Below, in pieces: positions 2,851-63,752 of a DNA stretch of 64,000 nt (position 1 is its first letter; each line of letters begins with the position of its first letter). This DNA comes from Blattamonas nauphoetae (taxonomy: Eukaryota > Preaxostyla > Oxymonadida), in NCBI GenBank assembly GCA_033064195.1, contig JARBJD010000067.1, positions 62,001 through 126,000 on the forward strand, given 5' to 3'. A program made the position numbers and the translations under genes. Below the pieces are notes generated by a model that saw only the letters and a list, made by a program, of their open reading frames with translations, searched no databases and was not told the origin of the DNA.

Positions 2851-4524
2851 TCTGCTCATGACGTTCAATTTCAGAGCCTCCAAAAGGCATTCCGCGATGG
2901 AACGTATTTTGAGAAGATGACACTTCTGAAAATGTGGATGCGGTGGTTTGACTTTAGAGAAGGAGATGAGCATGGTGAGATGATGACTGAGTCAGACTTC
3001 GATTTCGACGGGTTTCTGGCAGCCGATCTGAGTGACTCAGACCTCTTCGACCAATCATGTTCCTTCGTTTTGAGTATCATCATGAGCGACGTCACTTTGA
3101 TGACCCTTCGATGGAAGTTGGACTTCCTTCTTTCGTTTGAGAAGAGGCATCAGATGATGTCACGTCTCTCCAGCGATCCGAACCCGTCTTTAAAACAGAA
3201 ACCATCAATTCTGTTTCTGAGTCCACTCGCAACCAAACTCAGTTCGTTCTTGTCTGTCTTTCGTGGCTGTGATTTCCCTTCTGTTCTGACAGAATTAATC
3301 ACAATCGATTTGGACTCAATTCCACACCAACTACCTTATATCGTGAGTCCTTCCTTCTTTCTCAACCACACCTCCATCGATCCCAACCACCGACACTCAT
3401 TCTTCCCGATGGATCTGATGTTCGAGAGGTTCCTCCGCGACGACCCGAACGAGTTTTTCAGAGAATGGCTTGATGTGTCTGAATGCACTCCGAGAAAGGT
3501 CCTCTCCACTCCCTATGTTGGACTTCACTCCCTCCTTCTTCGATCACCCGAACTCAACCTCAATCCACTCACACTTTACAATCTCCTTCACATGCTTTCT
3601 CTCGACATCTCAGATCAGGACACCACGGAAGAAGCCTATCTCACGCTCTTTGCATACAACCCTCCTCATCGTCTCCTCGACACTCTGGTCTCATTTCCAC
3701 ACCTCATCAGAGATAAATCCATTATATGGATTAGTTTACTCATTATTGTCCAAAAAATTGGTGATCTCACTGCTCCTTTCGGTACCTGTGCGTCTCTCGC
3801 TCAAGTCTTCAAGATGCTCTCTCTCTTCGATCAGAATTCTGAACAGGTCGAATCTGACTTGCTGAGTGAAGTTGGAGAGATTGTTGTGTCTCTTCACTGG
3901 CTCAACATTCCTGCTCACTTCGACTCTCCACTCCTCTGCCATCTTCCTTCTCTGGCTGGTGCTCAGCGAGGCGTGCTCCAAACTCTCTCCTCTCACTCTG
4001 GCATCCCCTCTCTCCTCACACCAACCAACTCCGAATCCAATCTGGCCAGTCTCCAAGCAATGATGTTTGAAGAACTAGCTGTTCAGGATGCAATTCCCTT
4101 TCTGTCTTGGTGTGTCCGATATCTCGCGTCCTCAGGTATGACCTCACTTTTGTCATCCTTTCGCAGATTGTAATTATTTCACAATCGGATCGTCTGTCAG
4201 TGGGTTCCTCGCTTGGACTCTTAAGTTTGTCTTCTCTCGTCGCTCTCTCATCTTTTCAGATCTCCCATTCCAGCAGTCGCATCAGCTACCATCGAGTTCT
4301 TCCATCGATTCGTTAGTGTCTCGTCTGATGCTGTTCGGATCGAGTTGGTGAAGAAGGGTCTGTTGGATCATGTCGTGTTCGCTGTGTCGAATTCGTCGTT
4401 CTTGGATGACTACGAGAAAGGGATTGCTGTGATTGGGATTCTTCTGGCAGCAATTCGACGCTCGGATCAGAAACGGAGAATGAGAGTGTTCGACTTCGAT
4501 CGATGTCTGAATGCTGATTCTTGA
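2851..4524 (+). pseudogene. A1: 5'-truncated copy of the A family (helical protein of unknown function)
   Basis: First copy of the A family in the array. Similarity to A2-A4 begins abruptly near 2851 in the middle of exon 4, at the segment before 'FQSLQKAFRDG'. Exons 1-3 and roughly the first 200 codons of exon 4 are missing. What remains is open and well preserved: exon 4 to 4135, a 31-nt intron 4136-4166, micro-exon 5 4167-4224, a 35-nt intron 4225-4259, and exon 6 4260-4524 ending TGA. Splice sites and phases (1 and 2) match the intact copies. The last residues differ (ends 'CLNADS'). It lacks a promoter region of its own family type, so I call it a truncated copy, although a transcript from elsewhere cannot be excluded. 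Confidence 0.8.
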
Positions 4525-4679
4525 AGCTCATCGTCCGACTGACTCATCCAGACGAGCCAAACATGATGTGGATGCCAACCATCCGGAAGTCCCGAATCAC
4601 TCATCAATCATGCGCTCACCTAATCATCTCCAAAAAAAGAAAACTGAGGAGTGTCTGATGCGACCTTCGAGACAGAGGT

Positions 4680-5060
4680 CACAGATCGCACCCTTTGCGA
4701 CAAATTCAATGTCACTATCGATTTTTGCCCCGATCTCGTTCGATTCAACCCTGCTCACAATCGCTTCGTCCATCAACGGAATCTCCCTCAGAGACTCCGA
4801 CTTCTGGAACTCTCATCTCGACACATTTGGACGCTATCCTGTCCGAGATGTCGTTTTGGATGTTTCGAGAATGGTGAAAGACGTTTCCAAGCCAAGTTTG
4901 TCATTTTGTTGGATTCATCACTTCTCACGTGTTTCACTGAGGAGTCGGAGACACCCGAATCAGTTTCCGAAGATGGACGAAGAGGGAAGATGATCTGACC
5001 GATTTGTTCATGATTCTGATGAGTGGATTCATGAAATGTCAGAAACGGACTCAAAGTTCA
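4680..5060 (+). pseudogene. B1: short remnant of the B family
   Basis: About 100 codons match the later B copies (10454-10650 and 22592-22800). Landmarks are 'FDS.LLTI.SSINGI', a following 'SDF' and 'KPSLSFCWIH', which is the 3' half of B. The central part after 'RVSLR' departs from B2 and B4 and no intact final exon is present. It sits just downstream of A1, in the same place that B copies occupy after A2, A3 and A4, so it marks a decayed unit of the array. Confidence 0.55.
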
Positions 5061-5660
5061 CCGAATCATCCTCAAACACACAGCTATGAGAGGAAAGAGT
5101 TGAAGATGGGAAGATGAGAATGGTGAGACTTGGACCATCTGTAGATTTGGAGCAGTTAATGTGTGTTCAGTTTGATTGTTCATTGAAGGATTCATCCCTT
5201 CGCTTCACTCACTGTATCGCTCATCCACACTTCCACAAAACTTTCTTCGTTGTCTTAATATCCTCTTCCAACATTCACTCCACTCTTGATGCGATTGACT
5301 CGTTGAGAGACCGGAGAAAGACAGTCCCTCGTGGCACGGTAAGATCAAGCCACACTTTGTGTTTAATCTGACTCAACATCGAACTCTCACCTTCACTGTC
5401 TGTGTTTTTCGTACTTCCACCTTTTCCGTACTCCCAATTCATTCAATCTCTTCATAGTAACCAAAATCATCCTCAATTGGACTCTTGTGAACCGTTCTTT
5501 GTCCGTGCCCTCTCCGATCCTAACTTCGTCTGGTGTTTCTTTTTTGTTCCAACTTCGTCACATTCTTCATATGTTGTCGTTTTAAGTTCTCCGAACTCTT
5601 TTATTTTCAGAGTATCATTTTCATACCAGCTTTTGACCAGTCACAACCTCTCGTCTTCAA
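5061..5660 (+). promoter_or_regulatory. Conserved 5' flank of A2 (likely promoter and leader)
   Basis: This 600-bp flank recurs almost unchanged before A3 (about 11040-11635) and A5 (about 23100-23694), and in a diverged form before A4. It ends right at the ATG of each A gene. A run of T followed by TTTTATTTTCAGAG about 60 bases before the ATG could be a 3' splice site of a leader intron. A short open frame beginning at 5114 is partly shared among copies but degenerates before A4, so I do not call it a gene. No TATA-like element is convincing. Confidence 0.45.
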
Positions 5661-8600
5661 ATGAGTGAACAGACTTCTCTTATCCCACATTCCATTATTT
5701 CTATCTTCACTGATTCTAGCGAGGGTGATATTGCTAATCTTGCACTTTCTGAGGAGATTCAGACACAATCTCTAGCTTCGCACATCCACCGGTTTGAAAG
5801 CAGTGATGAGTCTCTTTCATGGACAGTGTGTTGTTCTTCTATTTATCTCACTTCCTGCAGAGATTGATGGAATGGTTTGTTGAAGCGGTGATTGGGGCTG
5901 AACTGTTCCAAAATGAACACCCCTCTGCCCCGCCTCTGACCTTCGAGAACATCCGAATTGACTCATCCTCCACAATCGTGATCGGTCTTCTCTTTTTCTC
6001 CTTTCATCGTCTGAACAGCTTTTCCCTCGTCGCCAGACGAACCATCGATTTCTGGTTCTCTCTCTTCCGACATCTCCACACTCTGTAAATTCTTTCTTCA
6101 CATCCATCGAACACTCGAAATCACCAACCGATTTATTCTCCCTTTTGACTACACTCAACAGGATATTGTCTTCGCCCGATTCATGGTTGCCCTCGTCGAA
6201 GAATGTGTCTCTTCCAACAAGCTCATTCTCCCAAACTCGTCTCCACATGATCACTTCCAATCTTTTGTGGAGTTTTATCAACAACTTTGCGAGACGGACG
6301 GATTCTACACGAATTCATTTCTCCCTCACACGCTCGCCGCATCATTCACTCGTTTTGTTCTTCAACCAGACCGTCGCAGTTCATTTATTCTGCCCGATCA
6401 CTCATTCCTTCGTAGCGGAGATGCTGTTGAATATTCGAACGAGCTTCTGGATGCGGTGAAGAAGATCAAAGTGACACACTCGTTGGAGGGAGTTCGGAAT
6501 GTGTATTTTGACTGGACAGAATGGGTGACAATGATGGAGACAATCGAGAAAGATGCGACACTTGGGGTGTGTCTTCATTTCTATTGATTCATCTCTTCAG
6601 AGTGATCTTTCCTTCCTCCAATCTCGCTATCTTCGAGCCACACTCCTCTCCCTCCAAACGAAGAATCAACACATTGTCAACCCGTCTCCAATCGAAGAGA
6701 ACAGTGAATCAGACTCTCTCCCCTTTCTGATTACAGGTGATCATTCAAATTTCTCCTCATCAGCCATCTCCACTGAAATAACACTCCCATCTGAACAATC
6801 GTCTTCAGAATCGCAAGAGCTCGCTTCCGAGCAGTCGGTCTTCCATTCCAACTCCATCGGTCGTCATTCCCGACAGATCCTCTCAACGATTCATGACATC
6901 CTCACACGCCCACATCACAATTCCTTCCCATGGGACAACCGTCCATCACACACTTCGGACACGGAACTGGACGCACTTCTCCAACTCCCTCCATCGAAAG
7001 TCGATCAAAACGAAAAGTTCGACATCTCGCTGTTCGACGAAGCAGACGATGCGAAGATTGTAGCATCACTCCGCCGGTGTCGGGCTGTTGTCGAGTCGAC
7101 GCAATCCACAAAATGCATTGTTGACATCGACACATTCAGGGAATTCCTCATCGCTGGTCTCAGCTCTACCAATTTAATAGTCCAGAAGGAATGTTACTAT
7201 CTCTTCTTCGCAATCGGAGAGCACCTTACGACAGTTGATGATCCTCGTGACATCCAATTTCAGAGCCTCCAAAAGGCGTTCCGCGATGGCAAATTCTGGG
7301 AGAAGGTGGCTCTTCTGAATTTGTGGACGAGATGGTTCTTCCAATCCGAGTCTGTGCATGGACAGGTGATGATGTCTGAGTTCGACTTCGATTTCGACGG
7401 GCTTCTGGCTGCTGATCTACACGAAACACTTCTCTTCTATCTGGCGTGTCTCTTCATCAGGACAATCTTCCTCAACAACGTGGTTTCGATGTCCTTTGGA
7501 TGGAGAATGGACTTCCTTCTTTCGTTTGAGAAGAGGCATCAGATGATGTCGCGTCTCACCAGCGATTCGAGTCCATCTTCTGGTTATGAAGATACGAGGC
7601 AGTCTATGAGTTGCGACACAAATCTGCTCGGCTCGCTCTTGTCTGTCTTCAGAGGCTGTGATTTCCCTGCTGCTCTGACAGAACTCATCACAATCGATTT
7701 AGATTCCTTTCCACTTGCTTTATCTAATGACATGAATCCAGCCATTTTTCTCAACCACACCTCCATCGATCCCAAACACAGACACTCCTTCCTCCCGATG
7801 GATCTGATGTTCGAGAGGTATCTCCGATCGGATCCTGACGTGTTCTTCTCTAACTGGCCTGATGTAACAGACTGCACTCCGAGAAAGTTCCTCTTCACTC
7901 CATCTGTGGGACTGCACTCCCTCCTTATTCGGTCACCCGAACTCAATCTCGACGAACAAGAGCTTCTCCAACTCATGAGCATGCTCGCTGTCGATATCTC
8001 AGGTCAGGACACTACAGAAGATGACATTAACAACCTCTTCCGTTATTTCCCTCCTCCTCGCCTCGTCGACACTCTCCTCGCCTCTCCACACCTCGTCAGA
8101 GCACACGTCGACATCTGGACCAGTTTTCTCACTGGCTTCTGCAACTTCGGTGCTCACACTACTCCCTTCGGTGCCTGCTCGTCTCTCGCCAAAGTGTTCA
8201 AATTGCTCTCTCCATTCGATTCGGATCCGGAACAAAACGAGTTGGACTTGTTGAGTGAAGTTGGAGAGATTGTTGTGTCTCTTCACTGGCTCAACATTCC
8301 TGCTCACTTCGACTCTCCACTCCTCTGCCATCTTCCTTCTCTGGCTGGTGCTCAGCGAGGCGTGCTCCAAACTCTCTCCTCTCACTCTGGCATCCCATCT
8401 CTCCTCACTCCACCAAACACCGAAACATTTTGGAAGAACATCGAAACATTCGTGTCTGAACCCCCCACTTTCAATGGTGCAATCAAGGTAATGTCGTTGT
8501 ATATACGATATTTCTCTTCTGATGGTATGAAATTCCTGTTGTCATCCTTTCTCAGACATCCCTTCATCCCACAGATCCTTTGTTGTTGACTCTTTCGCTG

Positions 8601-8953
8601 CGAATCTCCTGTTTGTCTTCTCTCATCGCTTTCTTCATCTTTTCAGATCTCCCATTCCAGCAGTCGCATCAGCTACCATCGAGGTCTTCCAACGATTCGT
8701 CAGTGTCTCGTCTGATGCTGTTCGGATCGAGTTGGTGAAGCAAGGTCTGTTGGATCGTGTTGTGTTCGCTGCGTCGAATTCGTCGTTCTTGGATGACTAC
8801 GAGAAAGGGATTGCTGTGATTGGGATTCTTCTGGCAGCAATTCGACGCTCGGATCAGAAACGGAGAATGAGAGTGTTCGACTTCGATCGATGTCTGAATG
8901 CCGATTTGAGTAGTTCATCATCTGACATGCAAGTTCAGACGTGCCAAACATGA
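5661..8953 (+). CDS. A2: intact six-exon A-family gene, large helical protein of unknown function
   Basis: Exons 5661-5825, 5861-5984, 6019-6566, 6601-8524, 8556-8610 and 8647-8953 give one open frame of 1,040 codons plus TGA. Introns are 35, 34, 34, 31 and 36 nt, all GT...AG, with phases 0, 1, 0, 1 and 2. The ATG at 5661 is the first in frame and is shared by A3-A6. Residues 1-55 are Ser/Thr/Glu-rich and exon 2 opens with 'RLMEWFVEAV'. Exon 3 is helical ('FARFMVALVEECV'). Exon 4 begins with 'SFLQSR', a Ser-rich linker and 'FDISLFDEADD', then runs of Leu-rich amphipathic helices with landmarks 'SFEKRHQMMSRL', 'LNHTSIDPKHRHSF', 'VGLHSLLIRSPEL' and 'HFDSPLLCHLPSLAGAQ'. Exon 6 carries 'SSFLDDYEKGIAVIGILL'. 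No signal peptide, membrane segment or catalytic motif is visible. The helical repeats suggest a HEAT/ARM-like scaffold, which is inference. Confidence 0.85.
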
Positions 8954-9010
8954 TGTGGATGCCAGCGATCAGGAAGTGCAGCATTCCTCTTCGAATGGGA
9001 GCTCCCCTCC

Positions 9011-10817
9011 TCATCTCCAAAAGACACTCTTTTCACTCACTCTCTGAGACAGACTCTGTGCAATCATGAGACTCGCTTGACAAAGCATTCGGGACAGTGG
9101 CTTTATAATCCACTCTCGGAGTTGAAACATTCTGAATTTCTCGTCGATCGCACATGAACCAACTGATCTGAACGAGACCTTCTCTCCGCACATCTTCGAC
9201 GAAGAAGACGATACAACCCTCGCTCGCTCAATGCTCAGCTGTCATCTTCTTTGCCAAATGATCCCTCCCGAACAGTGCATCACCAACTTGGAACAGTTTG
9301 TGGAAGGATTGGCCGCTCTTCTGGAAATTCAACACAGGCACATTCAAATTGCTGTTTTTCCGCTTCTCACCAAACTCGTTTGCGTCCTCCCTTTTGGACA
9401 GATTCATCGCCAGCTGCTGTTCTCTTTCCGACACGCTTTCCGGGAAGGCTCACTCACATTTCAGACTGTCCTCGTGTATGCTGCCATCAAATGCAGTCTG
9501 AGCGTGTCAATGTCAATCAAACCCTCAGAACATCCGCTCTCTCACTTCGATTGGGACGGAATGATTCATCACACAAACATGGACCAAATCTCATTCCAGA
9601 TGTGTGTGCACTTCCTCAGTGTCGACTTCCCTCGTCTCAGATTCGTCTCCCCAAAACTCGCAGAATCCATTTTTGTTGAGTTTGAGAGCAATCAACACGC
9701 CATCCCCAGAATCACCACGATTCTCGTTCTCATGAACGATCGAATCAACCCGACCGTCCTCCAACAATTCTTGGAGTTCAGTCTGATCCTGTCATTCTTC
9801 TTCGGAAGGACTCTTCCCAACACAATTGTTCAATCAATCTGGGAATATCTAGAAATCAGCGAGTGGTCTTCATGCGTTGGATTCCATCCCTCCTTCCTCC
9901 TCAACCACACTTCGTCCAACTGCAATCGCCACTCACAGCCAGTTATGTTGATGGAGCTGCTGTGCGAGCGACAAATACGCTCCTCACCGCACCACTTCAT
10001 CAAGTTTAAATTTTAGGGTCTTCAGGACGAATCTCCACTCTTTCTGACCACTCCTCTCGTCGGGCTCCATCCGCTCTTCTTCCGAGGCCTCGTTCCTCGT
10101 CCCAACGAGATCCACCACTTGGTGCTCGTCGTTGTCGTCATTCCAATCGTCATGTCCACGTCAAGACATCTGAGTGAACTGTGGGCCATTGCATCGCATG
10201 ACCCTCCTCCACTTGCAGTCCAATTCTTCGCTATGCCGATCTGCTCACTTCGTGCGATGGGCGGGATGGTCTCCCATCTGTTTTCTTTTCTCAGCTGAAT
10301 TCTCCCGTCGTGTGCCCCGTTTTAAGAGTGCAAGAGTCTTGTGATGATCGCCAGGGAGTTCTCGGCACTCAGACACCTAAACACACAACTGACTGTCTAA
10401 AATGTCTTTGTCGTTCAGATTTTGTTTGATCGCACTGGCTGAGCGTCCCAAGCTTGTTCGATTCTCCCATGCTCACAATCACTTCGTCCATCAACGGAAT
10501 CCCCCTCACTCCCAGTGACTTCAGGATCTCAGACCAAGACTTGTCTCAACAAGAATCTGTCAAAACTACCATCTTATTGGGATCGAGAAGAGTAAAAGAT
10601 GTCTCCAGGCCAAGCTTGTCATTTTGTTGGATTCATCGTTTCACAGAATTTGCGAAGGCGTGGAGTGTTGGATGCTGTGGTTGTGTCGGTGTCTTCGTCA
10701 TCGTTTTTGGAGGACTTCGAAAACGGAGTGGCTCTGATTGGGACTCTGCTCGGGACAATGCGACGAGTGGAGCAGAATACACAGACACGTCGATTCGACT
10801 TCTCCTCCTTCTTCTGA
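9011..10817 (+). pseudogene. B2: decayed B-family copy
   Basis: B is a diverged relative of A. It keeps the same block order, with 'FDEEDDTTLARSML' for the A block 'FDEADD', then a helical stretch around 'PPEQCITNLEQFVEG', 'LLNHTSSNCNRHS' for the A block with HRHSF, 'LTTPLVGLHPLFFRG' for 'VGLHSLLIRSP', 'FDSPMLTI' for 'FDSPLL', and a final exon with 'SSFLEDFENGVALIGTLLG'. The longest open part is 9231-10016, which stops at a TAG after 'HHFIKF'. The equivalent site in B4 is open. The parts after that are spread over at least two more frames, to a TGA at 10815-10817. Nothing like A exons 1-3 precedes it. It is therefore a broken gene, probably without a protein product, though the 262-residue open part could still be read. 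Confidence 0.65.
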
Positions 10818-11635
10818 CGTCATCCCTGTCCACCCAAATCGATCGCATTCCACTCGACGAGTTTGTTTGACGGCACATTGTGACACGAATCGAACGACAT
10901 CCTTTCAATATGTTGTTGATTCAACTGGAGGATCAGTTCGTGAAGATGGATGAAGAGTGAAGATGATAGGCCCGATTTCTTCATGATTCTGATGAGTGGA
11001 TTCATGAAATGTCAGAAACGGACTCAAAGTTCACCGCATCTTGCACAAACACACAGCTATGAGAAGAAAGAGTTGAAGATGGGAAGATGAGAATGGTGGG
11101 ACTTGGACCATCTGCAGATTTGGAGCAGGCAATGTGTGTTCAGTTCGATTGTGCATTGAAGGATTCGTCACTTCACCTTGCTGGCTTTCTTTCTCTTCCA
11201 CACTTCCACAAAACTCTCTTCATTGTTATGATGTCCCCTTCCAACATTCACTCCACTTGGCCTGTTAAGCACCGTCCAGTCGAGGTGTGAACGTCCAGTC
11301 CATCGTGACATGGTCAGATCAAGCCACACTTTGTGTTGAATCTGACTCAACATCGAACTCTCACCTTCACTGTCTGTGTTTTTCAAGCTTTCCACCTTTT
11401 CCGTACTCCTAATTAATTCAATCTGTTCATAGCACCCAGAATCATCCTTAATTGGACTCTATTGTGAATCGTTCTTCGTCCGTGACCTCTCCGATCCTAA
11501 CTTCGTCTGGTATTTCTTTTTTTCCAACTTCGTCACATTCTTCATATGTTGTCGTTTTAAGTTCTCCGAACTCTTTTATTTTCAGAGTATCATTTTCAAA
11601 CCAGATTTTGACGTGTCTCAACCTCTCGTGGTGAA
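10818..11635 (+). promoter_or_regulatory. Region between B2 and A3, mostly the conserved A 5' flank
   Basis: From about 11040 to the ATG at 11636 this is the same flank found before A2 and A5, including the T-rich stretch and possible leader 3' splice site ending TTTTCAGAG near 11586. The first 200 bases are the B2 3' trailer, also found after B4. Short open frames here (for example 11087-11290) change phase between copies and are not supported as genes. Confidence 0.4.
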
Positions 11636-14600
11636 ATGAGTGAACGGACATCTCTGTCATCTCAATCCATTGAATCTTCATCAACAGAATTTGGCAACAG
11701 CGATATCGCCAATACTACACTTTCTGAGGAGATTCAGACACAATCTCTCGGATCACACATCCAGCGATTTGAAAGCGGTGATGAGTCTCTTTCATGGACA
11801 GTGTGTTGTTCTCCTCATTTTCCAACTTCCTGTAGAGATTGATGGAATGGTTTGTTGAAGCGGTGATTGGAACAGAACTGTTCCGAAATGAACACCCCTC
11901 TGCCCCGCCTCTGATCTCTGAGAACATCCGAATTGACTCATCCTCCACAATCGTGATCGGTCTTCTCTTTTTCTCCTTTCATCGTCTGAACAGCTTTTCC
12001 CTCGTCGCCAGACGAACCATCGATTTCTGGTTCTCTCTCTTCCGATATCTCCACCCTCTGCGCGTTCTTTCTTCACATCCATCGAACACTCGAAATCAAC
12101 AACCGCTTGATCCTCCCTTTTGACTACACTCAACAAGATATTGTCTTCGCACGATTCATGGTTGCTCTCGTCGAAGAATGTGTCTCTTCCAACAAGCTCA
12201 TTCTACCAAACTCGTCTCCTACAGACCACTTCCAATCTTTTGTGGAGTTTTATCATCAACTTTGCGAGAGGGACGAATTCTACACGAATTCATTTCTCCC
12301 TCACACGCTCGTTTTATCGTTCGGTCACTATGTTCTTCAACCAGACCGTTGCAGTTCATTCATTCTGCCCGATCACTCGTTCCTTCGTGCCGATGATATT
12401 ATTGAGTATTCGGAGGAACTTCTGAATGTGGTGAAGAAGATCAAAGTGACACACTCGTTGGAGGGAGTTCGGAATGTGTATTTTGACTGGACAGAATGGG
12501 TGACAATGATGGAAACAATCGAGAAAGTAGCAACACTTGGGGTGTGTCTTCATTTCTGTTCATTCATCTCTTCAGCGTGATCTATCCTTCCTCCAATCTC
12601 GCTGTCTTCGAACCACACTCCATTCACTCCAAACGAAACATCAACACATTGTCAACCCGTCTCCAATCGTAGAAAACACTGAAACAGACACTCCCCCCTT
12701 TCTGATTACAGGTGATCATTCAAATTTCTCCGCATCAGTCATCTCCACCCAAATTGCACTTCCGTCTGATCAATCGTCTTCTGAATCGCAAGTCCTCGCT
12801 TCCGACCAGTTGGTCTTCCATGCAGACTCCATCGTCCATCATTCCCAACAGGTCCTCTATGCGATTCATGACATCCTCACACGCCCCCATCACATTTCCT
12901 TCCTGTGGGACAACCGTCCATCATACACTTCGGACACGGAACTGGACGCCCTTCATCAACCAGATCCTCGATTCATCGATGAAAACGAGAAGTTCGACAT
13001 CTCGTTGTTCGACGAAGCAGACGACCAGACGATTGTAGCATCACTCCGCCGATGTCGAGATGTTCTCGACGCGACGCAATCCACCAAATGCATTGTTGAC
13101 ATCAACGCATTCCGGACTTCCCTCGTCTCTGGTCTCAACTCGTCCAATCGCGCCATCCAGTTCGAATGTTATCCTCTCTTCTTCGAAATCGGAGAGTTCC
13201 TTTCGACAGTTGATGATCCTCGTGACATCCAATTTCAGAGCCTCCGAAAGGCGTTCCGTGATGGCACATACTGTGAGAGGATGGCTCTTCTGAATATGTG
13301 GGTGAGATGGCTGCTCGGCAGACACAGCTGTCGGCATGGCGAGAAGATGGCTGAGTCAGACTTCGATTTCGACGGGTTATTGGATGCTGACCTGAGTGAC
13401 ACATCACTCTTCTATCGGGCGTGTATCTTCATCAGGTTAATCTTTCTCAACGAAGCTGTTTCGATGTCACAAAAGTGGAAATTGGACTTCCTTCATTCGT
13501 TTGAGAAGAGACATCAGATGATGTCGCGTCTCTCCTGCGATCCGAGTCCATCTTCAGAGTATGATAATACGAGGCAGTCTATGAGTCGCGACACAAATCT
13601 GCTCGGCTCGCTCTTGTCTGTCTTCAGAGGCTGTGATTTCCCTGCTGCTCTGACAGAACGCATCACAATCGATTTAGATTCCTTTCCACACGATATCATG
13701 TATTGGGTGAGTCCTTCCTTCTTTCTCAACCACACCTCCATCGATCCCAACCACCGACACTCCTTCTTCCCGATGGATCTGATGTTCGAACGGTATCTCC
13801 GATCGGATCCTGACGAGTTCTTCGAAGAATGGCCTGATCTCTCCGATTGCACTCCGAGAAAGTTCCTGACCACTCCTTCTGTTGGTCTCCACTCTCTCCT
13901 CCTTCGGTCACCCGAACTCAACCTCAATCCACTCACACTTCACAATCTCCTTCGCATGCTTACTCTCGACATCTCAGGTCAGGACACCACGAAAGAAGAC
14001 TGTCTCATTCTCTTTGCACACTTCCCTCCTCCTCGCCTCTTCGACACTCTGCTCTCCTCTCTTTCTCTTTTCCTACCGTCAACACCAGAAAGGACGTTCT
14101 GTCTCAATTTGTTCCGCGACTTTGGTGATCTCACTTCTCCTTTCGGTGCCTGTGCATCTCTCGCTCAAGTCTTCAATATGCTCTCACCATTGGAGCAGAC
14201 AAGAAAACAGTTCGAATCTGACTTGTTGAGTAGAGTTGGAGATGTGGTTGTGTCTCTTCACTGGCTCAACATTCCTGCTCACTTCGACTCTCCACTCCTC
14301 TGCCATCTTCCTTCTCTGGCTGGTGCTCAGCGCGGCGTGCTCCAAACTCTCTCATCCCACTCTGGCATCCCCTCTCTCCTCAATCCAACCAACACCGCAA
14401 TCTTTTTGAAGAGCATCGAAGCAATGATGTTTGAAGAATTAATTATTAATGACAGAGTTTTCTTTCTGTCTTGGTGTGTAAGAAATCTCGCGTCCTCTGG
14501 TGTGGCCTCACTTTTGTCATCCTTTCGCAGATTATTATTATTTCACAATCGGATCGTCTGTCGCTGGGAACCTCGCTTTTAATCTTAAGTTTATTCTCTC

Positions 14601-14905
14601 TCATTGTTCTTCATCTGTTCAGATCTCCCGTTCCTGCTGTCATGTCAGCTGCTTTCGAGTTCTTCCATCGATTCGTCAGTGTCTCGTCTGATGCTGATCG
14701 GATTGAGTTGGTGAAGCAAGGTCTGTTGGATAGTGTTGTGTTCGCTGTGTCGTGTTCGTCGTTCTTGGATGACTACGAGAAAGGGATTGCTGTGATTGGG
14801 ATTCTTCTAGCGACAATCCGACGCTCGGATCAGAAACTGAGAATGAGAATGTTCGACTTCGATCGATGTCTCAATTCCCGTCTGAGAAGCTCTTTGCCTG
14901 ACTGA
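11636..14905 (+). CDS. A3: intact six-exon A-family gene
   Basis: Exons 11636-11800, 11836-11959, 11994-12541, 12576-14499, 14531-14588 and 14623-14905 join into 1,033 codons plus TGA. Introns are 35, 34, 34, 31 and 34 nt in the same phases as A2. Exon lengths 165, 124, 548 and 1,924 are identical to A2, so divergence has been almost all substitution. The micro-exon 5 is 58 nt against 55 in A2. The fourth intron has the donor GTGTGG instead of GTATGA. The protein shares all A landmarks but differs in blocks: the segment after 'RLFDTLL' (about codons 770-800) is unlike A2, while the following 'FDSPLLCHLPSLAGAQRGVL' block is nearly identical. Its upstream flank and exons 1-4 are almost the same as A5. 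Function unknown. Confidence 0.85.
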
Positions 14906-15531
14906 CACATCCAGACGAGTCAAACATGATGTGGATGCCAGCGATCAGGAAGTCCCGAATCGCTCATCAATCTTGTTCTCACCTCATCATCTCCAAAAGA
15001 CGATAATGAAAAACCATCTGACACGATCTTCGTGGCAACAGCTACTCTTATCACACACTTTTCGAGGCAGGCTCTGTGCAGTCATGACTTTCTTCACTAC
15101 AGTCTCTGACTTCGACTTGTCAAGACTATCCAAACATGATTCTGACTTCAAGTTTCTTCAGAGCGACTTCTCATTCCTCCGAATGCCATGTTTCAAACCT
15201 GCTCTCCTTCGTCTCCAATCGAAGTTCCAGAACATCTCTCAGCTCTTTCGTCCATCCAACCAGCCCTCACCAACTCCCAACATGATCTCGTCTTCCGAAC
15301 CATCTCTTGATTGGAGCTCAACTGCACCGTCTCTCGCCATCCAATCGCCCATCTCGCTCACCACTGCACATCTATCTGATCCAACCACAAACCGGTCAGA
15401 GCTGGATGATGAATCTGAACATTCAGAGATATCCCTCTCCAACCACCCCTCCTCAAATTCATCTTTCTCTCCACTCACTTCTCAACAGGAAGCACGCCAC
15501 ATCCTGTCTGTCCTCCACTCACTCATCACTA

Positions 15532-15575
15532 CAGTGGTTCCAAAAGCCGGGACTATTCCAAAAGGCGGGACAATA
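15532..15575 (+). repeat. Left terminal inverted repeat of the pogo-like element
   Basis: Begins CAGTGGTTCC. Inside it a 16-bp word (TTCCAAAAGCCGGGAC, then TTCCAAAAGGCGGGAC) occurs twice in direct orientation with a 2-base gap. This arrangement is typical of paired transposase-binding sites. Confidence 0.9.
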
Positions 15576-15749
15576 TCATTTTCTATTTTCGATTGTCCAT
15601 ACAATCCTATCGAAAAGCGTCATTTCATTCTCGTCATGTACTGAAATTGGGCGTGTTCTATATGTCTATTATGTGTTAATTAAGTTGTTTTGATGGCAGG
15701 AATCTAAGACGAGACAAAATGAGTGAAAATAGAGATGAGCCCATGATTC

Positions 15750-17361
15750 ATGAAAGGAACAAAAAAAAGCAGAACTCCACACCGACGAGCTATCGAACGA
15801 GAGCTCGGAAAACGGGAATATTTCGGCTTATCGCGGGCGGAAAAGGTCATTCGAATCGAGAAAGCGCTGAATCTCAAGAAGGGTGTAGTGAACAGAGTGG
15901 TGGGTGCGGGGCGCAGCTCAGTTTGGAGAGCAAGAAAGGCGGCGGCAAATCGACGGGATATAGGCGTGACAGGGCGTCCGAACAGACTTCGCAAGACTCA
16001 AAGAGATGATTTGCTGAATACTTTTAAAGAACAAAAAACAGACCGAGGGACTGTCACTTTTTCAGTCCTCCAGCAAGCTGTATGCACTTTTTTCTGTCAT
16101 AATTCCATTCTAGGCAGAACAGATGTTGAAAGATGAGATGGGAGATGAATATGAAGACAGACCTCTCAGCCCAACGTGGATATACAATAATTCGGACGCT
16201 GTGAATGAGCTGGTTGTTTCGACCCCAACAGTAATGGAAGCAAAAAAAATTTCTTGTTGCAATCCTTCAACCATAAAGGCTTGGAATTCACTCCTGACCA
16301 ACGTTGTATCCTCATTCTCCATTGACTTTCGTCTTCAATTCAATTTGGACGAAAGTTCGCTAAAAGTGACAGGGAAGAGAGTGAACATGGAATTTCATTC
16401 GAAAAAAACAATACCTCCACCTCTCAAAAAGCCGTCAAGAACGCCGAATACAACACTTTGTTCATGTATCTGCGCTGATGGCACTTGTCTCCCACATGCC
16501 ATCATCCTCGCGAAAAAGAAGGAGGCAGTCGAATTTCAGGATTTTAATCCTGACACTCTGAGACAAATTACAAATAACTCTGGATGGATGGATAAAGCAA
16601 CTTTCAAGAAGTATATTGAAACGATTTTCATTCCTTTCACCGTCAACAAAAGATCACGTCTGAATTTGGAGGACAGTTGGGCACTCTTGGTCGTTGATTC
16701 CCACTCAAGTCGTTTTCAAGATGATCTGCACAAGATACTAATCCAAAATCATATTCATCTCCTGACACTACCCCCCAACACGACGAATCTTTTGCAACCG
16801 TTGGACGACATCCCCTTCAGGACGTTCAAAAAGTCGTTTTATGACTCATATACTGAGCCATCTGATCCTTCTCGATCGGCGATTCGGTCAGCTGTGGCGG
16901 AAGCACTTAAACTGGCTTTACAAGAAGGCTTCCGCATAAAGTGCATCAAACCAGCATTCTCAAACTGTGGTTTCTTTCCGATTTCGGAAAGAAATCCAAC
17001 AAACAAGCTGAAACGTCAATTTCAATTACCGATGACTTGCACAGATGAGGAATTAGATGAATTCTGCAAACCGAAAATGGTCATCTCTGAAGGACGTCTC
17101 CTCACGGAAATACAGACAGAGATTTCACCTTCAACTGACGAAATGCAGAACAGAGCCAGACCTGCAACTGGAATGGGTTTGATAACTTCCTTCTTCCAAC
17201 CGAGAAGTGCTCACCGTTTGCATCAGGAAAATACTCCCATCGATCAAGTCAATCAGGAAACAATCAGGTCAATCGACGAAGAAAACATTGAAAATCACAT
17301 TGCACCTCCTTTTATCGAACATATTGGCCGATTCCGTCTTTACCACGACGATACCGAATAA
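15750..17361 (+). CDS. Pogo-like DDE transposase with a 34-nt intron
   Basis: Exon 1 is 15750-16079 and exon 2 is 16114-17361, joined by a 34-nt GTATGC...TAG intron in phase 0, giving 525 residues ending in TAA. The N-terminal about 100 residues are basic with helix-turn-helix character ('GAGRSSVWRARKAA', 'GRPNRLRKTQRDDLL'), fitting DNA binding. The catalytic domain in exon 2 shows the DDE_1/pogo signature: 'FNLDESSLK' (first Asp), 'LLVVDSHSSRF' (second Asp) and 'PPNTTNLLQPLDD' with the third acidic residue followed by 'FRTFKKSF'. The enzyme would cut and paste the element at TA sites. The start at 15750 is the only ATG in the right phase; an ATG at 15719 is in another frame. The gene appears intact. 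The intron has exactly the length class of the host's own introns. Confidence 0.92.
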
Positions 17362-17531
17362 CAGTTCTTTCAAGAGACTACTCGCTCTGCATGCATTTCT
17401 TTTTCACCATTCATCCTTTTTTCGTGTTGGTATTCAGATAGTGTTGTTCATAAACCAAATAAATTCGATGAATATGAGAAATGAGCGTGACACTGGAAAA
17501 CAAAACACTAGCGGCAGAGAAAGAAAGAATG

Positions 17532-17575
17532 TATTGTCCCGCCTTTTGGAATAATCCCGGCTTTTGGAACCACTG
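17532..17575 (-). repeat. Right terminal inverted repeat of the pogo-like element
   Basis: Reverse complement of the left repeat with one mismatch (ACTATT against ATTATT in the spacer between the two inner 16-bp words). Followed by the TA target duplication. Confidence 0.9.
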
Positions 17576-18030
17576 TACTCCTCTTTCATCATCTTTCCAA
17601 CCCTCCTATTCCCACTGTCCCGTCTGAACACTGTTCCTGATTTCTCGTCGATTGCACATGAACCAATTGATCTGAACGAGACGTTCTCTCCACACATTTT
17701 CGACGAAGAAGACGAAACAATCCTCGCTCACTCGATTTTCAGATGTCATCGTCTTTGCCAGCTGGTTCCTCCAGAACAGTGCATCACCAACATGGAACAG
17801 TTCGTGGAAGGATTGGCCGCTCTTCTGGAAAGTCAGAACAGGCATCTTCAAATTGCTGTCCTTCCGCTTCTCACCAAACTCGTTTGCGTCCTCCCATTTG
17901 GACAGATTCATCGCCAGCTGCTGTTCTCTCTCCGACACGCCTTCCGGGAAGGCTCACTGGCGTCTCAGACTGTCCTCGTGTATGCTGCCATGAAATGCAG
18001 TCTGAGCGTGTCCATTTCCTCTGGAGGGTC

Positions 18031-18725
18031 CAATTATGAAGATGGATGGAGCGTGACGGTGAATCAATGGATTCCATCATGGAAATGGTGGGAAGATGAA
18101 CGAAGCGGAAGAGGGTTAAACAGGGTCAACAGAAACAAACAAAAATTCTGCTCAGAAAAGAATGAATTGAAGCTGGAAAGCGGAGAATGGTGGTACTTGA
18201 GTCTCCAGTCGTGTTGGATCAGATACTGTGTCTTCAGTTTGATTATTGATTGAAGGGATTCATCTCTTCACCTCACTGACTTTCTTTCTCTTCCACACTT
18301 CTTAAAGAAATGTGTCGTCGCCATAATCTCTTCATATTGAAATTTCCTTGCGGTTGAAGCGTTTGATTCGTAGAGAGACTGAAAACCAACTGTCCATCGA
18401 TATGGAGTAAGATCAAGCCACCATTTGTGAACCTCAATTCTCAGCATCTCCCTCTCCCGTTCATTGTCTGTGTTTTTCTATCCTGTCACATTGTTCGAAC
18501 TCATAATATCATTCAATCAATTTATAGAGCCCACGATTCACCAACTCGATTGTTTTCTGAATCGTCATTTATCCGGGCTTAACAAAAGTATATTCGTTTT
18601 ATATTCATTTTTCCATCTTCATTAATCCTGTTTTGTGTCTATATTCGTTTTATGGTCTGTTCTCTCTCATATTCTTCCTGTGATTTCCATCAAGATTTTG
18701 ACATTTCCTACCATCTCCTTTATCA
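18031..18725 (+). promoter_or_regulatory. 5' flank of A4, diverged version
   Basis: Related to the flanks of A2, A3 and A5 but clearly diverged, and closest to the flank of A6 on the other strand (shared stretch around 18080 with TGGTGGGAAGATGAACGAAG, and the start of the leader). It contains a 14-bp direct repeat TATATTCGTTTTAT at about 18590 and 18640. No gene is seen. The frame at 17564-18253 runs into this region only by chance past the end of B3. Confidence 0.4.
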
Positions 18726-21700
18726 ATGAGTGAACGGAATTCTATTTCCCGTCAATCCATTAATTCTTTATCAACAGATTGTGATGACAATGACATCGTC
18801 AATACTGCACTTTCGGAGAAGATTCATACTCAATCTCTCGAATCGCACATCAGGCGATTTGAAAGTGGTGATGAGTCTCTTTCATGGGCTGTGTGTTGTT
18901 CCTTTCTTTTTTTCACTTCCTGTAGAGATTGATGGAATGGTTTGTTGAAGCGGTGATTGGAGCGGAACTGTTTCGAAATGAACACCCCTCTGCCCCGCCT
19001 CTGACCTTCGAGAACATCCGAATTGACTCATCCTCCACAATCGTGATCGGTCTTCTCTTTTTCTCCTTTCATCGTCTGATCAGCTTTTCCCTCGTCGCCA
19101 TCCCAACAATCGATTTCTGGGTCTCTCTCTTCCGACATATCCACCATCTGCTCGTTCTTTCTGAACATCCATCAGACACTCAAACTAAATAACCGCTTGA
19201 TACTCCCTCTTGATCCAAAACGGAAAGATCTTATCTTCTCTCGCATCATGTTTGCCCTCGTCGAACATTTTGTGGCTTCTGGAGATCTCATTCTCCCAGA
19301 TTCATCTCCATCTGATCACTCACCATCTTTTGCAAACTTTTATCAATATCTTGAAGAGAATTTCGGAGAAGCTTCCGATGTATTTCTCCCCCACATTCTC
19401 GCCTTATTCTTCAAACGTTTTCTTCATCTCACCAACAATCATTATTACATTCTGGCAGACCACTCGTTCCTGCGTGGCGACGATATTGAACATTCGAACG
19501 AGCTTCTGGAAGCTGTGAAGAAGATCAAAGAGACTAACTCGCTGGAGGGAGTTCAGAATGCATTTTATGACTGGACAGAATGGGAGACGATGATGGAGAA
19601 AATCGCAAAAGATGCAACACTTGGGGTGTGTCATCATTTCTATTCACTATTCCCTTCAGCGCGGTATTTCCTTCCTCCAATCTCGCTATCTTCGAGCCAC
19701 ACTCCTCTCACTCCAAATGAAACATCAACACATTGTCAACCCACCTCAGATCGAAGAGAACAATACAACAGACTCTCCTCCCTTTTGGATGCCTGACGAC
19801 CTGTCCCTCCGCTCACAAGCCATCTCAGCTTTCACTCACCTCACATTGAATCGGCACTCTTCTTTCAATCACCAAACATCCTCGACGCACAGTTCAAGTC
19901 ATGCATCAACCATCTCCACCCAAACGGCATTCCCATCCCATCAATCGTCTTCCGATTCTCAAAAACTCGCTACTGATCAGTTGTCATCCAATCCCGACTC
20001 CATCATTCGTCATTCCAAACAGATACTCTCTGCGATCCATCTTCTCCTCACACGACCACCTCCTTCTTCATTCCCAAGGAACAACCGTCCGTCATACACT
20101 TCGGACACGGAACTGGACGCCCTTCATCAACCAGATCCTCGATTGATCGATGAAAACGAGAAGTTTGACATCTCGCTGTTCGACGAAGCAGACGACCAGA
20201 CGATTGTGGCATCACTCCGCCGATGTCGAGATGTTGTCGACGCGACGCAATCCACAAACTGCATAGTTGACATCAACGCATTCCGGGAAGTCCTCATCGC
20301 TGGTCTCCTCTCATCCAATCGCGCCATCCAGTTTGAATGTCACACCCTCTTCTTCACAATCGGAAAGTTCCTTACGACAGTTGCTGATCCTCGTGACATC
20401 CAATTTCAGAGCCTCCAGAAGGCGTTCTGCGATGGCAAATTCTGGGAGAAGATGACTCTTCTGAATTTATGGGTGAGATGGCTGTTCGACAGACACAGAG
20501 ATGGACAAGTACAGATGATGGTTGAATCAGATTTTGACTTCGACGGGTTTCTGGCGATTGAACTGAATCACACGGCACTATTCGACAAGGCTTTCGACTT
20601 CGTCTGTTGTATCTTGGTAAGTGACGCTGTTTCGATGTCCTTTCGATGGAAGTTGGACTTCCTTCTTTCGTTTGAGAAGAGACATCAGATGATGTCGCGT
20701 CTCACCAGCGATCCGAGTCCATCTTCGAAACAGGAACGACCGAAATCTTTTCTGAATCTATTCACAATCGTAGTCGGTTCGTTCTTGTCTATTTTTCGTG
20801 ACTGTGATTTCCCTCCTGCACTGACAGAACTCATCACAACTGATTTGGACTCAAATACACACAAGATGTCACTTTGGGTGAATCCAGCATTCTTTCTCAG
20901 CCACACCTCCATCAATCCCAAACACCGACACTCCTTCTTCCCGATGGATCTCATGTTCGAACGGTATCTCCGATCGGATCCTGATGTGTTCTTCAGAAAA
21001 TGGCCTGATGTGTCCGACTGCACTCCGAGAAAGGTCCTCTCCACTCCTTATGTTGGACTCCACTCCCTCCTTCTTCGATCACCCGAACTCGACCTCAATC
21101 CACTCACACTTCACAATCTCCTTCGCATGCTTACTCTCGACATCTCAGGTCAGGACACCACACAAGAAGACTGTCCCACGCTCTTTGCACATTTCCCTCC
21201 TCCTCGCCTCTTCGACACTCTGCTCTCCTCTCCACACCTCGTCAGAGCAAGGTTCCTCATTTGGATTAGTTTTCTCTTTGTTTTCCAAACAATTGGTGAT
21301 CTCACTGCTCCATTCGGTGCTTGTGCGTCTCTCGCTCAAGTCTTCAAGATGCTCTCTCTCTTCGATCAGAATCCTGAACAGGTCGAATCTGACTTACTGA
21401 GTGAAGTCGGAGAAATGGTTGTGTCTCTTCACTGGTTCAACATTCCTGCTCACTTCGACTCTCCACTCCTCTGCCATCTTCCTTCTTTGGCTGGTACTCA
21501 GCGAGGCGTGCTCCAAACTCTCTCCTCTCACTCTGGCATCCCCTCTCTCCTCACTCCAACCAACTCCGAATCCAATTTGGCCAGTCTCGAAGCAATGATG
21601 TTTGAAGAACAAACTGTTCAGGATGCAATTCCCTTTCTGTCTTGGTGTGTCCGATTTCTTGCGTCCTCAGGTATGACCTCACTTTTGTCATCCTTTCGCA

Positions 21701-22077
21701 GATTGTAATCATTTCACAATCGGATCGTCTGTCAGTGGGTTCCTCGCTTGGACTCTTAAGTTTGTCTTCTCTCATCGCTCTCTAGTCTTAACAGATATCG
21801 CGTTCCTGCCGTCATGTCAACTGCTTTCGAGTTCTTCCATCGATTCGTCAGTGTCTCGTCTGATGCTGTTCGGATTGAGTTGGTGAAGCAGGGTCTGTTG
21901 GATCGTGTTGTGTTCGTTGTGTCGTGCTCGTCGTTTTTGGATGACTACGAGAAAGGGATTGCTGTGATTGGGATTCTTCTCGACGCCATCCGACGCTCGG
22001 ATCAGAAACTGAGAATGAGAATGTTCGACTTCGATCGATGTCTGAAAGCCGATTCTCGAAGCTCTTTGCCTGACTGA
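18726..22077 (+). CDS. A4: intact six-exon A-family gene, longest copy
   Basis: Exons 18726-18890, 18926-19049, 19084-19625, 19660-21670, 21702-21759 and 21795-22077 join into 1,060 codons plus TGA. Introns are 35, 34, 34, 31 and 35 nt with the family phases. Exon 4 is 87 nt longer than in A2 and A3 because of an extra Ser/Thr/His-rich linker segment between 'PPFWMPDD' and 'TAFPSHQ' (about codons 325-350). Exon 3 is 6 nt shorter and much diverged ('LDPKRKDLIFSRIMFALVEHF'), resembling A6 more than A2 or A3. The fifth intron ends CTTAACAG. The C-terminal half is nearly identical to A1 and A2 in blocks ('SLHWFNIPAHFDSPLL'). As in the other copies, no signal peptide, membrane helix or catalytic motif is visible. 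Function unknown. Confidence 0.85.
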
Positions 22078-22144
22078 CACCTCCAGACGAGCCAAACATG
22101 ATGTGGATGCCAGCGATCAGGAAGTCCCGAATCGCTCATCAATC

Positions 22145-22988
22145 ATCCGCTCCTCACCGCACCCTTTTTTCGAGAAAGGCTTTGAGGGTCTTCAGGACGA
22201 ATCTCCACTCTTTCTGACCACTCCTCTCGTCGGGCTCCATCCGCTCTTCTTCCGAGGCCGCATTCCTCTTCACAACGAGATCCACCACTTGGTGCTCGAT
22301 ACTGTCGTCCTTCCAATCGTCATGATCACATCCAATCATCTGAGTGAACTGTGGGCCATCGTGTCGCACTGTCCTCCTCCACTTGCTGTATAATTCTTCG
22401 CTTTGCCGATCTGCTCACTTCGTGCGATGGGCGGGATGGTCAAGCATCTGATTTCTTTTCTCAGCTGAATTCTCCCGTCGTGTGCCCCGTTTGGAGAGTG
22501 CAAGAGTCACGCGATGATCTTCAGAGAGTTCTCGGCACTCAGACACCTAGACACACAACTGACTGTCTAAAAAGTCTTCGTAGTTCAGATTTTGTTTGAT
22601 CTGAACTGGCTGAGCGTCCCAAGCTTGTTCGATTCTCCTCTGCTCACAATCACTTCGTCCATCAACGGAATCCCCCTCACTCCCAGTGACTTCAGGATCT
22701 CAGACCAAGACTTGTCTCAACAAGAATCTGTCAAAACTACCATCTTGTTGGGATCGAGAAGAGTGAAATATGTCTCCAGGCCAAGTTTGTCATTTTGTTG
22801 GATTCATCGTTTCACAGAATTTGCGATGGTGTGGAGTGTTGGATGCCGTGGTTGTGTCGGTGTCTTCGTCATCGTTTTTGGAGGACTTCGAAAACGGAGT
22901 GGCTCTGATTGGGACTCTGCTCGGGACAATGCTCCGAGTGGAGCAGAGCACGCGGACACGTCGATTCGACTTCTCCTCCTTCTTCTGA
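22145..22988 (+). pseudogene. B4: B-family remnant with its first half deleted
   Basis: Similarity to B2 starts abruptly near 22145, where A4 trailer sequence is joined to the B segment 'RSSPHPFFEKGFEGLQDESP', 'LTTPLVGLHPLFFRG'. It continues through 'FDSPLLTITSSINGIPLTPS' (22592 on) and 'SSFLEDFENGVALIGTLLG' to a TGA at 22986-22988. Bases 22190-22990 are nearly identical to 10018-10817 of B2, apart from a few substitutions. The stop seen in B2 after 'HHFIKF' is not present here, but other phase changes are shared (for example between 22393 and 22592). It is a partial, non-functional copy. Confidence 0.65.
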
Positions 22989-23694
22989 CGTCGTCTCTGT
23001 CCATCCGAATCGATCGGATTCAACTCGACGAGCCAGTTTGACGCAACAATGAGTCACGAATCGAGCATCTTCTTCATTCCAACGTCAAGTCCTCTGAATC
23101 ATCCTCAAACACACAGCTCTGAGAAGAAAGAGTTTACAATGAGAAGATGAGAATGGTGAGACTTGGACCAGTCGCAGAGTTGGAGCAGGCAATGTGTGTT
23201 CAGTTCGATTGTGCATTGAAGGATTCGTCACTTCACCTTGCTGGCTTTCTTTCTCTTCCACACTTCCACAAAACTCTCTTCATTGTTATGATGTCCCCTT
23301 CCAACATTCACTCCACACTTGATGCGATTGATTCGTAGAGAGACCGGAGAAAGACAGTCCATCGTGACACGGTAAGATCAAGCCACACTTTGTGTTTAAT
23401 CTGACTCAACATCGAACTCTCACCTTCACTGTCTGTGTTTTTCAAGCTTTCCACCTTTTCCGTACTCCTAATTAATTCAATCTCTTCATAGCACCCAAAA
23501 TCATCCTCAATTGGACTCTATTGTAAATCGTTCTTCGTCCGTGCCCTCTCCGATCCTAACTTCGTCTGATATTTCTTTTTTTCCAACTTCGTCACATTCT
23601 TCATATGTTGTCGTTTTAAGTTCTCTGAACTCTTTTATTTTCAGAGTATCTTTTTCAAACCAGATTTTGACGTTTCGCAACCTCTCGTGTTGAA
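22989..23694 (+). promoter_or_regulatory. B4 trailer and conserved 5' flank of A5
   Basis: About 23100-23694 is nearly identical to the flanks of A2 and A3, including the possible leader 3' splice site TTTATTTTCAG near 23645 and the A gene ATG at 23695. No separate gene is supported. Confidence 0.4.
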
Positions 23695-24943
23695 ATGAGT
23701 GAACGGAGATCTCTGTCATCTCAATCCATTGAATCTTCATCAACAGAATTTTCAAGAAGTGATATCGCCAATATTGCACTCTCTGAGGATATTCCAACCG
23801 AATCTCTCGAATCGCACATACACCGGTTTGAAAGCGGTGATGAGTCTCTTTCATGGACAGTGTGTTGTTCGCCTATTTATCTCACTTTCTGCAGAGATTG
23901 ATGGAATGGTTTGTTGAAGCGGTGATTGGAACAGAACTGTTCCGAAATGAACACCCCTCTGCCCCGCCTCTGATCTCTGAGAACATCGGAATTGACTCAT
24001 CCTCCACAATCGTGATCGGTCTTCTCTTTTTCTCCTTTCATCGTCTGATCAGCTTTTCCCTCGTCGCCATTCGAACCATCGATTTCTGGTTCTCTCTCTT
24101 CCGACATCTCCACCCTCTGCGCGTTCTTTCTTCACATCCATCGAACACTTGAAATCAACAACCGATTGATCCTCCCTTTTGACGACACCCAACAGGATAT
24201 TGTCTTCGCCCGATTCATGGTTGCCCTCGTCGAAGAATGTGTCTCTTCCAACAAGCTCATTCTACCAAACTCGTCTCCTACAGACCACTTCCAATCTTTT
24301 GTGGAGTTTTATCATCAACTTTGCGAGAGGGACGAATTCTACACGAATTCATTTCTCCCTCACACGCTCGTTTTATCGTTCGGTCATTTTGTTCTTCAAC
24401 CAGACCGTTGCAGTTCATTCATTCTACCCGATCACTCGTTCCTTCGTGCCGATGATATTATTGAGTATTCGGAGGAACTTCTGAATGTGGTGAAGAAGAT
24501 CAAAGTGACACACTCGTTGGAGGGAGTTCGGAAAGTGTATTTTGACTGGACAGAATGGGTGACAATGATGGAAACAATCGAGAAAGTAGCAACACTTGGG
24601 GTGTGTCTTCATTTCTGTTCATTCATCTCTTCAGCGTGATCTATCCTTCCTCCAATCTCGCTGTCTTCGAACCACACTCCATTCACTCCAAACGAAACAT
24701 CAACACATTGTCAACCCGTCTCCAATCGTAGAAAACACTGAAACAGACACTCCCCCCTTTCTGATTACAGGTGATCATTCAAATTTCTCCGCATCAGTCA
24801 TCTCCACCCAAATTGCACTTCCGTCTGATCAATCGTCTTCTGAATCGCAAGTCCTCGCTTCCGACCAGTTGGTCTTCCATGCAGACTCCATCGGTCGTCA
24901 TTCCCGACAGGTCCTCTATGCGATTCATGACATCCTCACACGC
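23695..24943 (+). pseudogene. A5: 3'-truncated copy of A3
   Basis: Exons 1-3 (23695-23859, 23895-24018, 24053-24600) and the start of exon 4 (24635-24943) are intact, with the family introns of 35, 34 and 34 nt. Similarity to A3 stops sharply after CACACGC at 24943, and unrelated AT-rich sequence follows, so about 600 codons, exons 5 and 6 and the terminator are missing. In exon 3 only a handful of residues differ from A3 (for example YTQQ/DTQQ, GHYV/GHFV and RNVY/RKVY). The read-through frame ends at a stop 24980-24982 after 13 foreign codons. This marks the right edge of the array. Confidence 0.85.
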
Positions 24944-63385: not shown

Positions 63386-63752
63386 TCAGAAAAAGGAGGA
63401 GAAGTTGAATTGACGTGTCTGCGTGCTCTGCTCCACTTGTCGCATTGTCCCGAGCAGAGTCCCAATCAGAGCCACTCCGTTTTCGAAGTCCTCCAAAAAC
63501 GACGACGAAGACACCGACACAACCACAGCATCCAACACTCCACACCACACCAACTCCATCCGAACTCATTCGCACAAACCGGGTCAGAAATTCCAACGCC
63601 ACAGACACGCCAGCGGGGACATCAGAGCTGAGAGGTTCGATGGATGGATCCGTGGAGGAACTCTGTGTGATTGAATCTTGCACGGCAGAAGGCACCATGG
63701 TGAAGATGTCGTTGTTGTTGAGTCTGATGTCAGACAACACGCAATGCGACAT
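63386..63752 (-). pseudogene. B7: B-family remnant on the - strand
   Basis: The 3' portion of a B copy: 'EFLTRFVRMSSDGVG' followed, after one phase change near 63550, by 'GVLDAVVVSVSSSSFLEDFE' and ending TGA at 63388-63386. Upstream of 63752 only A-type sequence is seen, so the rest of B is missing. It lies directly downstream of an A gene end (63780), which repeats the A-then-B order of the left array. Confidence 0.6.

Follow-up and report, generated by a model that had tools for sequence, protein, structure and literature searches.

Probable segmental gene conversion in a putative solenoid gene family of Blattamonas nauphoetae with a silent-site-conserved coding island

The protocadherin clusters of fugu undergo regional gene conversion. 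Blattamonas nauphoetae is a single-celled gut flagellate belonging to the oxymonads, an amitochondriate protist. In Trypanosoma cruzi, the RHS family has been described as having many paralogs, and recombination has been invoked to account for its variability (PMC7563717). Here we analyze a gene family of B. nauphoetae, named A, which resembles RHS and the fugu protocadherin clusters (PMC1852091) in being a multigene family with many paralogs. In contrast to both, it encodes unrelated proteins and carries a short coding island whose silent sites are conserved over dozens of contigs. The published genome is reported as 88.5 Mb with 25,221 predicted genes (PMC10703272). Our window, that is, the whole 64,000-nucleotide stretch of DNA analyzed, covers bases 62001–126000 of a contig 295,420 bases long and contains an array of A genes at 2851–24943; the assembly totals 88.3 Mb, in agreement with the published size.

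The A genes make up a large family in the nuclear genome, so far only found in B. nauphoetae; they have a sister family (B) and belong to a wider superfamily. We consider it probable that segmental gene conversion has acted within this species-restricted solenoid family, which would be under purifying selection and may have a scaffold function. Copies would have spread by tandem duplication of A+B units as well as by dispersed duplication. Segmental conversion between them could have imported diverged cassettes or homogenized the surrounding blocks, and the island, 135 bp long, would be the most homogenized or the most constrained block. Species-restricted multigene families as such are of a known kind; it is the silent-site island that most deserves the attention of specialists.

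Silent-site island and mosaic divergence of the A genes

Self-comparison of the window revealed five A copies alternating head to tail with four broken B copies, the arrangement proposed in a first-pass annotation made from the sequence alone. A2, A3, and A4 are complete (1,033–1,060 codons), each with six exons and five GT-AG introns of 31–36 bp, which agrees with the uninterrupted frames and matching splice sites claimed for three copies; the claimed start-to-start spacing of 5,975, 7,090, and 4,969 bp follows from the coordinates. The A features of the array are as follows:

About 2855–4524, + strand: A1, without the 5' half, 533 open codons; introns 4136–4166 and 4225–4259
5341–5660, + strand: 5' flank of A2, found with 92% identity ahead of A3 and A5, and with 74% identity over 117 bases ahead of A4
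5661–8953, + strand: A2, complete, 1,040 codons, first part of BLNAU_9609; introns 5826–5860, 5985–6018, 6567–6600, 8525–8555, and 8611–8646
8272–8406, + strand: silent-site-conserved island of 135 bp (45 codons) in exon 4 of A2, with equivalents in A copies genome-wide
11636–14905, + strand: A3, complete, 1,033 codons
18726–22077, + strand: A4, complete, 1,060 codons
23695–24943, + strand: A5, 5' part with the 3' part gone, 382 open codons; homology stops at 24943

In an alignment of 30 copies, identity was 0.89–0.96 over 8281–8400, compared with 0.5–0.8 over most of the gene and approximately 0.33 in the downstream flank. At fourfold codons with a conserved amino acid, identity among these copies was 0.86 inside the island (n = 26) versus 0.65 outside (n = 84; P-value = 1.2e-6); as the island was defined from the same copies, its P-values are post hoc. 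When two clades of A were compared with each other (10 and 31 copies, including all 11 large-exon matches at no more than 49% identity), the value was 0.81 for the island (n = 23) versus 0.48 for equally conserved codons elsewhere (n = 66; P-value = 1.2e-6). A smaller distant set of five copies, biased in that four were picked for an exact 32-mer, gave 0.86 versus 0.46. The silent-site identity expected at random from base use is 0.27 (13 copies). Clade structure is slight within the island (0.77 and 0.85 within clades, 0.80 between) and clear outside it (0.66 and 0.64 within, 0.49 between). The island is bounded approximately by codons 558 and 602 of exon 4, and a very variable segment then occupies codons 603–624.

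An unlikely though serious alternative is that the island is under direct nucleic-acid selection, as a small-RNA target, an exonic regulatory element, or a protein-binding DNA site controlling the family, with conversion playing a minor part. The strong silent conservation and fairly sharp edges fit such selection, as does the scarcity of long near-identical tracts among the 30 copies; moreover, 35 of the 68 silent variants in the island are singletons, as if each copy departed separately from a constrained sequence. On the other hand, 16 of the 68 are present in both clades. In the five B copies where an equivalent of the island was found, the silent bases are different, so that any element would have to be subfamily-specific; this favors homogenization within the subfamily over a superfamily-wide element. 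An RNA element was considered and rejected, as the island had no match in Rfam and showed no unusual fold (z from −1.2 to 1.0). Finally, the uneven divergence outside the island would still require recombination or some other cause.

This unevenness is well illustrated by A2 and A3. Their identity is 0.81–0.91 in the upstream flank, 0.79–0.95 in the 5' third (5701–6750; at least 0.93 in four of seven blocks), and 0.78 in the short 3' flank. In the coding blocks 7951–8250 and 8401–8700 it drops to 0.65–0.72, around the island block at 0.94. The two codon windows over these low blocks show silent divergence of 0.44 and 0.32, versus 0.12–0.25 in the other seven, and amino-acid selection alone is thus insufficient to explain the pattern. 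The first-pass annotation had overlooked this mosaic structure and the island, as well as the extent of the family across the genome.

The blocks of unequal divergence also have discordant closest relatives. A3 is missing from the match lists of both low A2 blocks (the best 40 of 85 candidates for the first, all 27 of 27 for the second). Among its best 40, the first block matches dispersed copies at 76–79%, A4 at 76%, and A1 at 73%; as A4 and A1 are thus close to the dispersed copies in identity, its discordance is limited to A3. For the second block, dispersed copies reach up to 77% over most of its length and A1 reaches 71%, A4 being unlisted, and the corresponding A3 block has good matches only in A1 and A4 (80%). 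Either A2 took in foreign cassettes or the neighboring blocks were homogenized.

Several observations limit the case for segmental conversion. In the genome match lists, no potential donor exceeded 79% identity over the greater part of a low block. The longest-run test gave P-value < 0.05 in three of nine array pairs before correction, and run and block tests within the array were weakly positive. Long near-identical tracts are rare, with two in 435 pairs of the 30 copies, neither within the aligned gene. In addition, near-identical pieces on different contigs were seen among 18 further places (L037/L062, 100% over 901 bp; L056/L063, 98.9% over 911 bp; L060/L061, 100% over 426 bp), which slightly raises the odds of a transposon and of direct nucleic-acid selection; L062 and L063 are situated on contigs of 29 and 22 kb, shorter than those of L037 and L056, and may be redundant assembly pieces.

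A bolder and rather doubtful idea is that the island serves as a DNA-level anchor, either a preferred recombination site of A genes or a shared target of small-RNA silencing, with the hypervariable segment downstream being exchanged between dozens of dispersed copies. If true, an amitochondriate protist would possess a system that diversifies its repertoire of intracellular solenoids by exchange of cassettes. Segmental conversion remains the explanation that we prefer, and the island makes it testable whether coding DNA is held constant across dispersed paralogs by recombination or by selection at the nucleic-acid level.

Two further cases concern pieces shared between dispersed copies. A 435-bp piece, 99.8% identical between L016 (745–1179) and L026 (590–1024) on the same contig, has opposite orientation in the two otherwise aligned loci; it was therefore rejected as a conversion tract and is probably an inserted dispersed repeat. 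In L061 (C242:15800–16700), A2-like residues 94–217 are joined directly to residues 817–898, and it is the last part of this locus that is shared over 426 bp with L060 (C161:103300–104200), where the flanks are unmatched.

Genome-wide extent and selection

The tandem array exists as described, but the family is not confined to it: approximately 94 A-like places were detected on 52 contigs, 13 or 14 of them on the contig of the window. Four lists were merged for this count, with 95 places resulting when matches within 2,000 bases were joined and 93 when the limit was 2,600 (1,500 bases gave 123, but split single genes); some places are fragments and part are known from short matches alone. A six-frame genome search with the A2 large exon yielded at least 67 large matches, a lower bound since 67 of 356 first-look candidates were scored, and 58 of these contain no stops, frameshifts being invisible to the search. 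Two of the nine matches with stops (A1 and A4) merely read into an intron. Three short DNA patterns from the A gene occurred at 77, 68, and 74 places in the genome, and reversed-pattern controls at none. Among the matches listed, the 5' flank of A2 had no further genome match beyond A3, A5, and A4.

The ratio of nonsynonymous to synonymous divergence (dN/dS, Nei-Gojobori) was 0.36–0.60 for nine array pairs, the A1–A5 pair being without overlap, and 0.39–0.69 genome-wide (median 0.53; 435 pairs from 30 of the 67 copies). These values uphold the earlier claim of selection to stay coding. The expectation of a ratio well below 1 was borne out in part: all pairs are below 1 (0.36–0.69) yet not far below, so purifying selection on the A copies appears relaxed, judging from sequence comparison. 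When neutral evolution of the A2 frame was simulated, about 5 stops arose at 0.05 substitutions per site, the number rising to 13 at 0.15; the lowest silent divergence among the 30 copies is 0.18 on the same contig and 0.23 for the closest pair across contigs. Stop-free frames are in excess, and together with the shared exon–intron structure and dN/dS below 1 they point to A being a coding family.

It is improbable that most copies are dead and open by chance or recent duplication, with few functional genes among them. The dN/dS of only about 0.5, the truncation of A1 and A5, the nine matches with stops, and the places known by short matches alone are consistent with this idea, but the simulated frame acquired stops already at 0.05 substitutions per site, whereas 58 of the 67 matches are stop-free.

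A still less probable proposal is that A and B represent a transposable element, or cargo carried by one, and that both tandem and dispersed copies arose by transposition. The high copy number, the dispersal over 52 contigs, and the near-identical cross-contig pieces would agree with it. However, a scan of three large A frames and of the B frame revealed no transposase, integrase, or reverse-transcriptase domain, and the ends of the A2–B2 unit have no long inverted repeats (12 pairs of 16–33 nucleotides, 73–89%). The minimum silent divergences given above, and the possible redundancy of the contigs carrying L062 and L063, also speak against it. No viral relative was found among 30 pattern matches in viral contigs or in BFVD (0 matches at E ≤ 0.001), and the search for a prokaryotic relative found none. 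With no domain in the scanned frames, no terminal repeats, and no viral or prokaryotic relative, an origin from a transposon or virus was rejected. A match to a known transposon or viral protein had been named beforehand as evidence against a functional family, and none appeared in the searches run.

In NCBI, members of the A family are listed singly as "hypothetical proteins" of B. nauphoetae (BLNAU_9609, BLNAU_10867, and others). BLNAU_9609 is a single model of 1,369 residues (window 5661–10867) which agrees with A2 over its first 971 residues, beyond the fifth intron, and then runs on into broken B2. The description of the family as previously unnamed is thus only partly accurate, as A2 has a locus tag, merged with B2, though listed as hypothetical only; such merging distorts NCBI gene counts for the family. 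Some annotated A proteins carry kinase, PARG, or V-ATPase parts. From how the P0059 and P0033 sequences read, an A–kinase fusion was set aside in favor of merged gene models, and BLNAU_18798 and a protein named CAMK/CDPK are probably A models merged with kinase neighbors. A sizeable set of the "hypothetical" genes of this gut protist would be one solenoid superfamily, kept and reshuffled.

Relatives, predicted fold, and possible function

The best matches of the A frame were annotated Blattamonas nauphoetae proteins, a name carried by 56 of 57, 52 of 53, and nine of nine hits in three protein searches. These searches, each scoring the roughly 8,000 best word-sharing candidates from a database whose content of other oxymonads was unchecked, found no relative outside this species; remote relatives in other oxymonads are possible. 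None of the words "orphan," "multigene," "lineage-specific," and "tandem" is used in the main text of PMC10703272, the genome paper, and titles and abstracts of the literature on Monocercomonoides and armadillo proteins mention no such family.

No Pfam family was matched at E ≤ 1 by any of the four frames scanned, three large ones from A and one from B, as expected from the earlier statement that A has no known domain, and a profile of 38 sequences matched no PDB chain at E ≤ 1. Structure prediction gave all-helical, ARM/HEAT-like models for both A and B with moderate confidence, which supports an earlier guess of a HEAT/ARM fold at the level of fold class. Their best structural matches were beta-catenin, karyopherin-beta2/transportin, CAND1, and APC, at approximately 10% identity over the aligned parts, and VIA-align placed no specific family clearly above the others. 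A complete A protein (~1,030–1,060 residues) is predicted to start with a helical domain at the N-terminus, followed by a disordered linker rich in serine and then by an alpha-solenoid resembling ARM/HEAT proteins. Thus A and B share with the alpha-solenoids beta-catenin, transportin, CAND1, and APC a predicted helical repeat domain, whereas A has no sequence or Pfam match to them and is predicted to possess an additional domain at the N-terminus as well as a long linker that is disordered.

We tentatively suggest that A proteins form a repertoire of soluble intracellular scaffolds or adaptors, based on the predicted solenoid, the absence of a signal-peptide-like N-terminus, relaxed constraint, and variable segments. 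Such proteins might act as binding scaffolds in which variable solenoid segments diversify binding. A variable family akin to surface antigens, in which a single copy or a few are expressed at any moment, appears very unlikely. The family is indeed large, species-restricted, and mosaic, with a variable segment right after a conserved anchor, and the hydropathy peaks of A2 (1.87) and A4 (1.66) are, taken alone, compatible with a membrane helix. However, the peak is lower in A3 (1.34) and differently placed in A4, the N-termini of A2, A3, and A4 are unlike signal peptides as judged by eye from the sequence, and the predicted fold is a solenoid.

B copies, transposons, and other features of the window

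The pieces of B in the array, and the transposon inserted in one of them, are:

4730–4906, + strand: B1 remnant, B residues 903–961 only
9135–10811, + strand: B2, 5'-truncated, contains stops
15156–15530, + strand: B3, first part, B residues 316–440
15530–17577, + strand: DDE_1 transposon inside B3, open reading frame 16114–17361, inverted ends, TA at either side
17600–18022, + strand: B3, second part, B residues 450–590
22142–22982, + strand: B4 remnant, B residues 742–1083, contains stops

B aligns with A at 22–28% identity, and B2 and B4 are 83–98% identical by 150-bp blocks. All B pieces of the window are truncated and none spans the whole of B, so the claim that every B is broken holds there. 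Elsewhere it fails: 11 of 12 B matches outside the array (46–69% identity) are stop-free, with open frames of 437–1,083 codons. B thus looks alive elsewhere, which contradicts its description as a decaying sister family. An A gene lies within two locus-tag numbers of three of the eight annotated B proteins (P0066–P0073), indicating that the A–B neighborhood recurs. For a third, P0057-like group, 96 matches were obtained, of which 16 are due to a different repeat at the C-terminus of P0057. This 53-residue stretch (residues 407–459) is 98% identical at 16 or more places in the genome (G000) and is probably an unrelated dispersed repeat.

The transposon in B3 is presumably pogo-like. A second, inverted A-B-A stretch, reported earlier at 53.3–64 kb, was also found by self-comparison, its A copy being interrupted:

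62698–62132, 60503–58643, and 54133–53344, − strand: inverted A copy in three pieces, with two interruptions
63392–63632, − strand: inverted B C-terminal piece
63834–63998, − strand: C-terminal piece of another inverted A, at the edge of the window

One gap of the inverted A copy holds a second transposase-like frame (60374–61990), which is 30% identical to the DDE_1 frame of B3 over 173 residues. Two different transposase frames are therefore inserted in the A/B family, one in B3 and the other in the inverted A.

Other features of the window include an open frame of 1,595 codons (45110–49897, − strand) with the C-terminal domain of a phospholipid-translocating P-type ATPase, or flippase (Pfam PhoLip_ATPase_C). 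A separate repeated coding-like segment is present at 1855–2176, upstream of A1, and at 32397–32718, with 79% identity between the two; P0046 (BLNAU_9608) matches window positions 1444–2172 at 98%.

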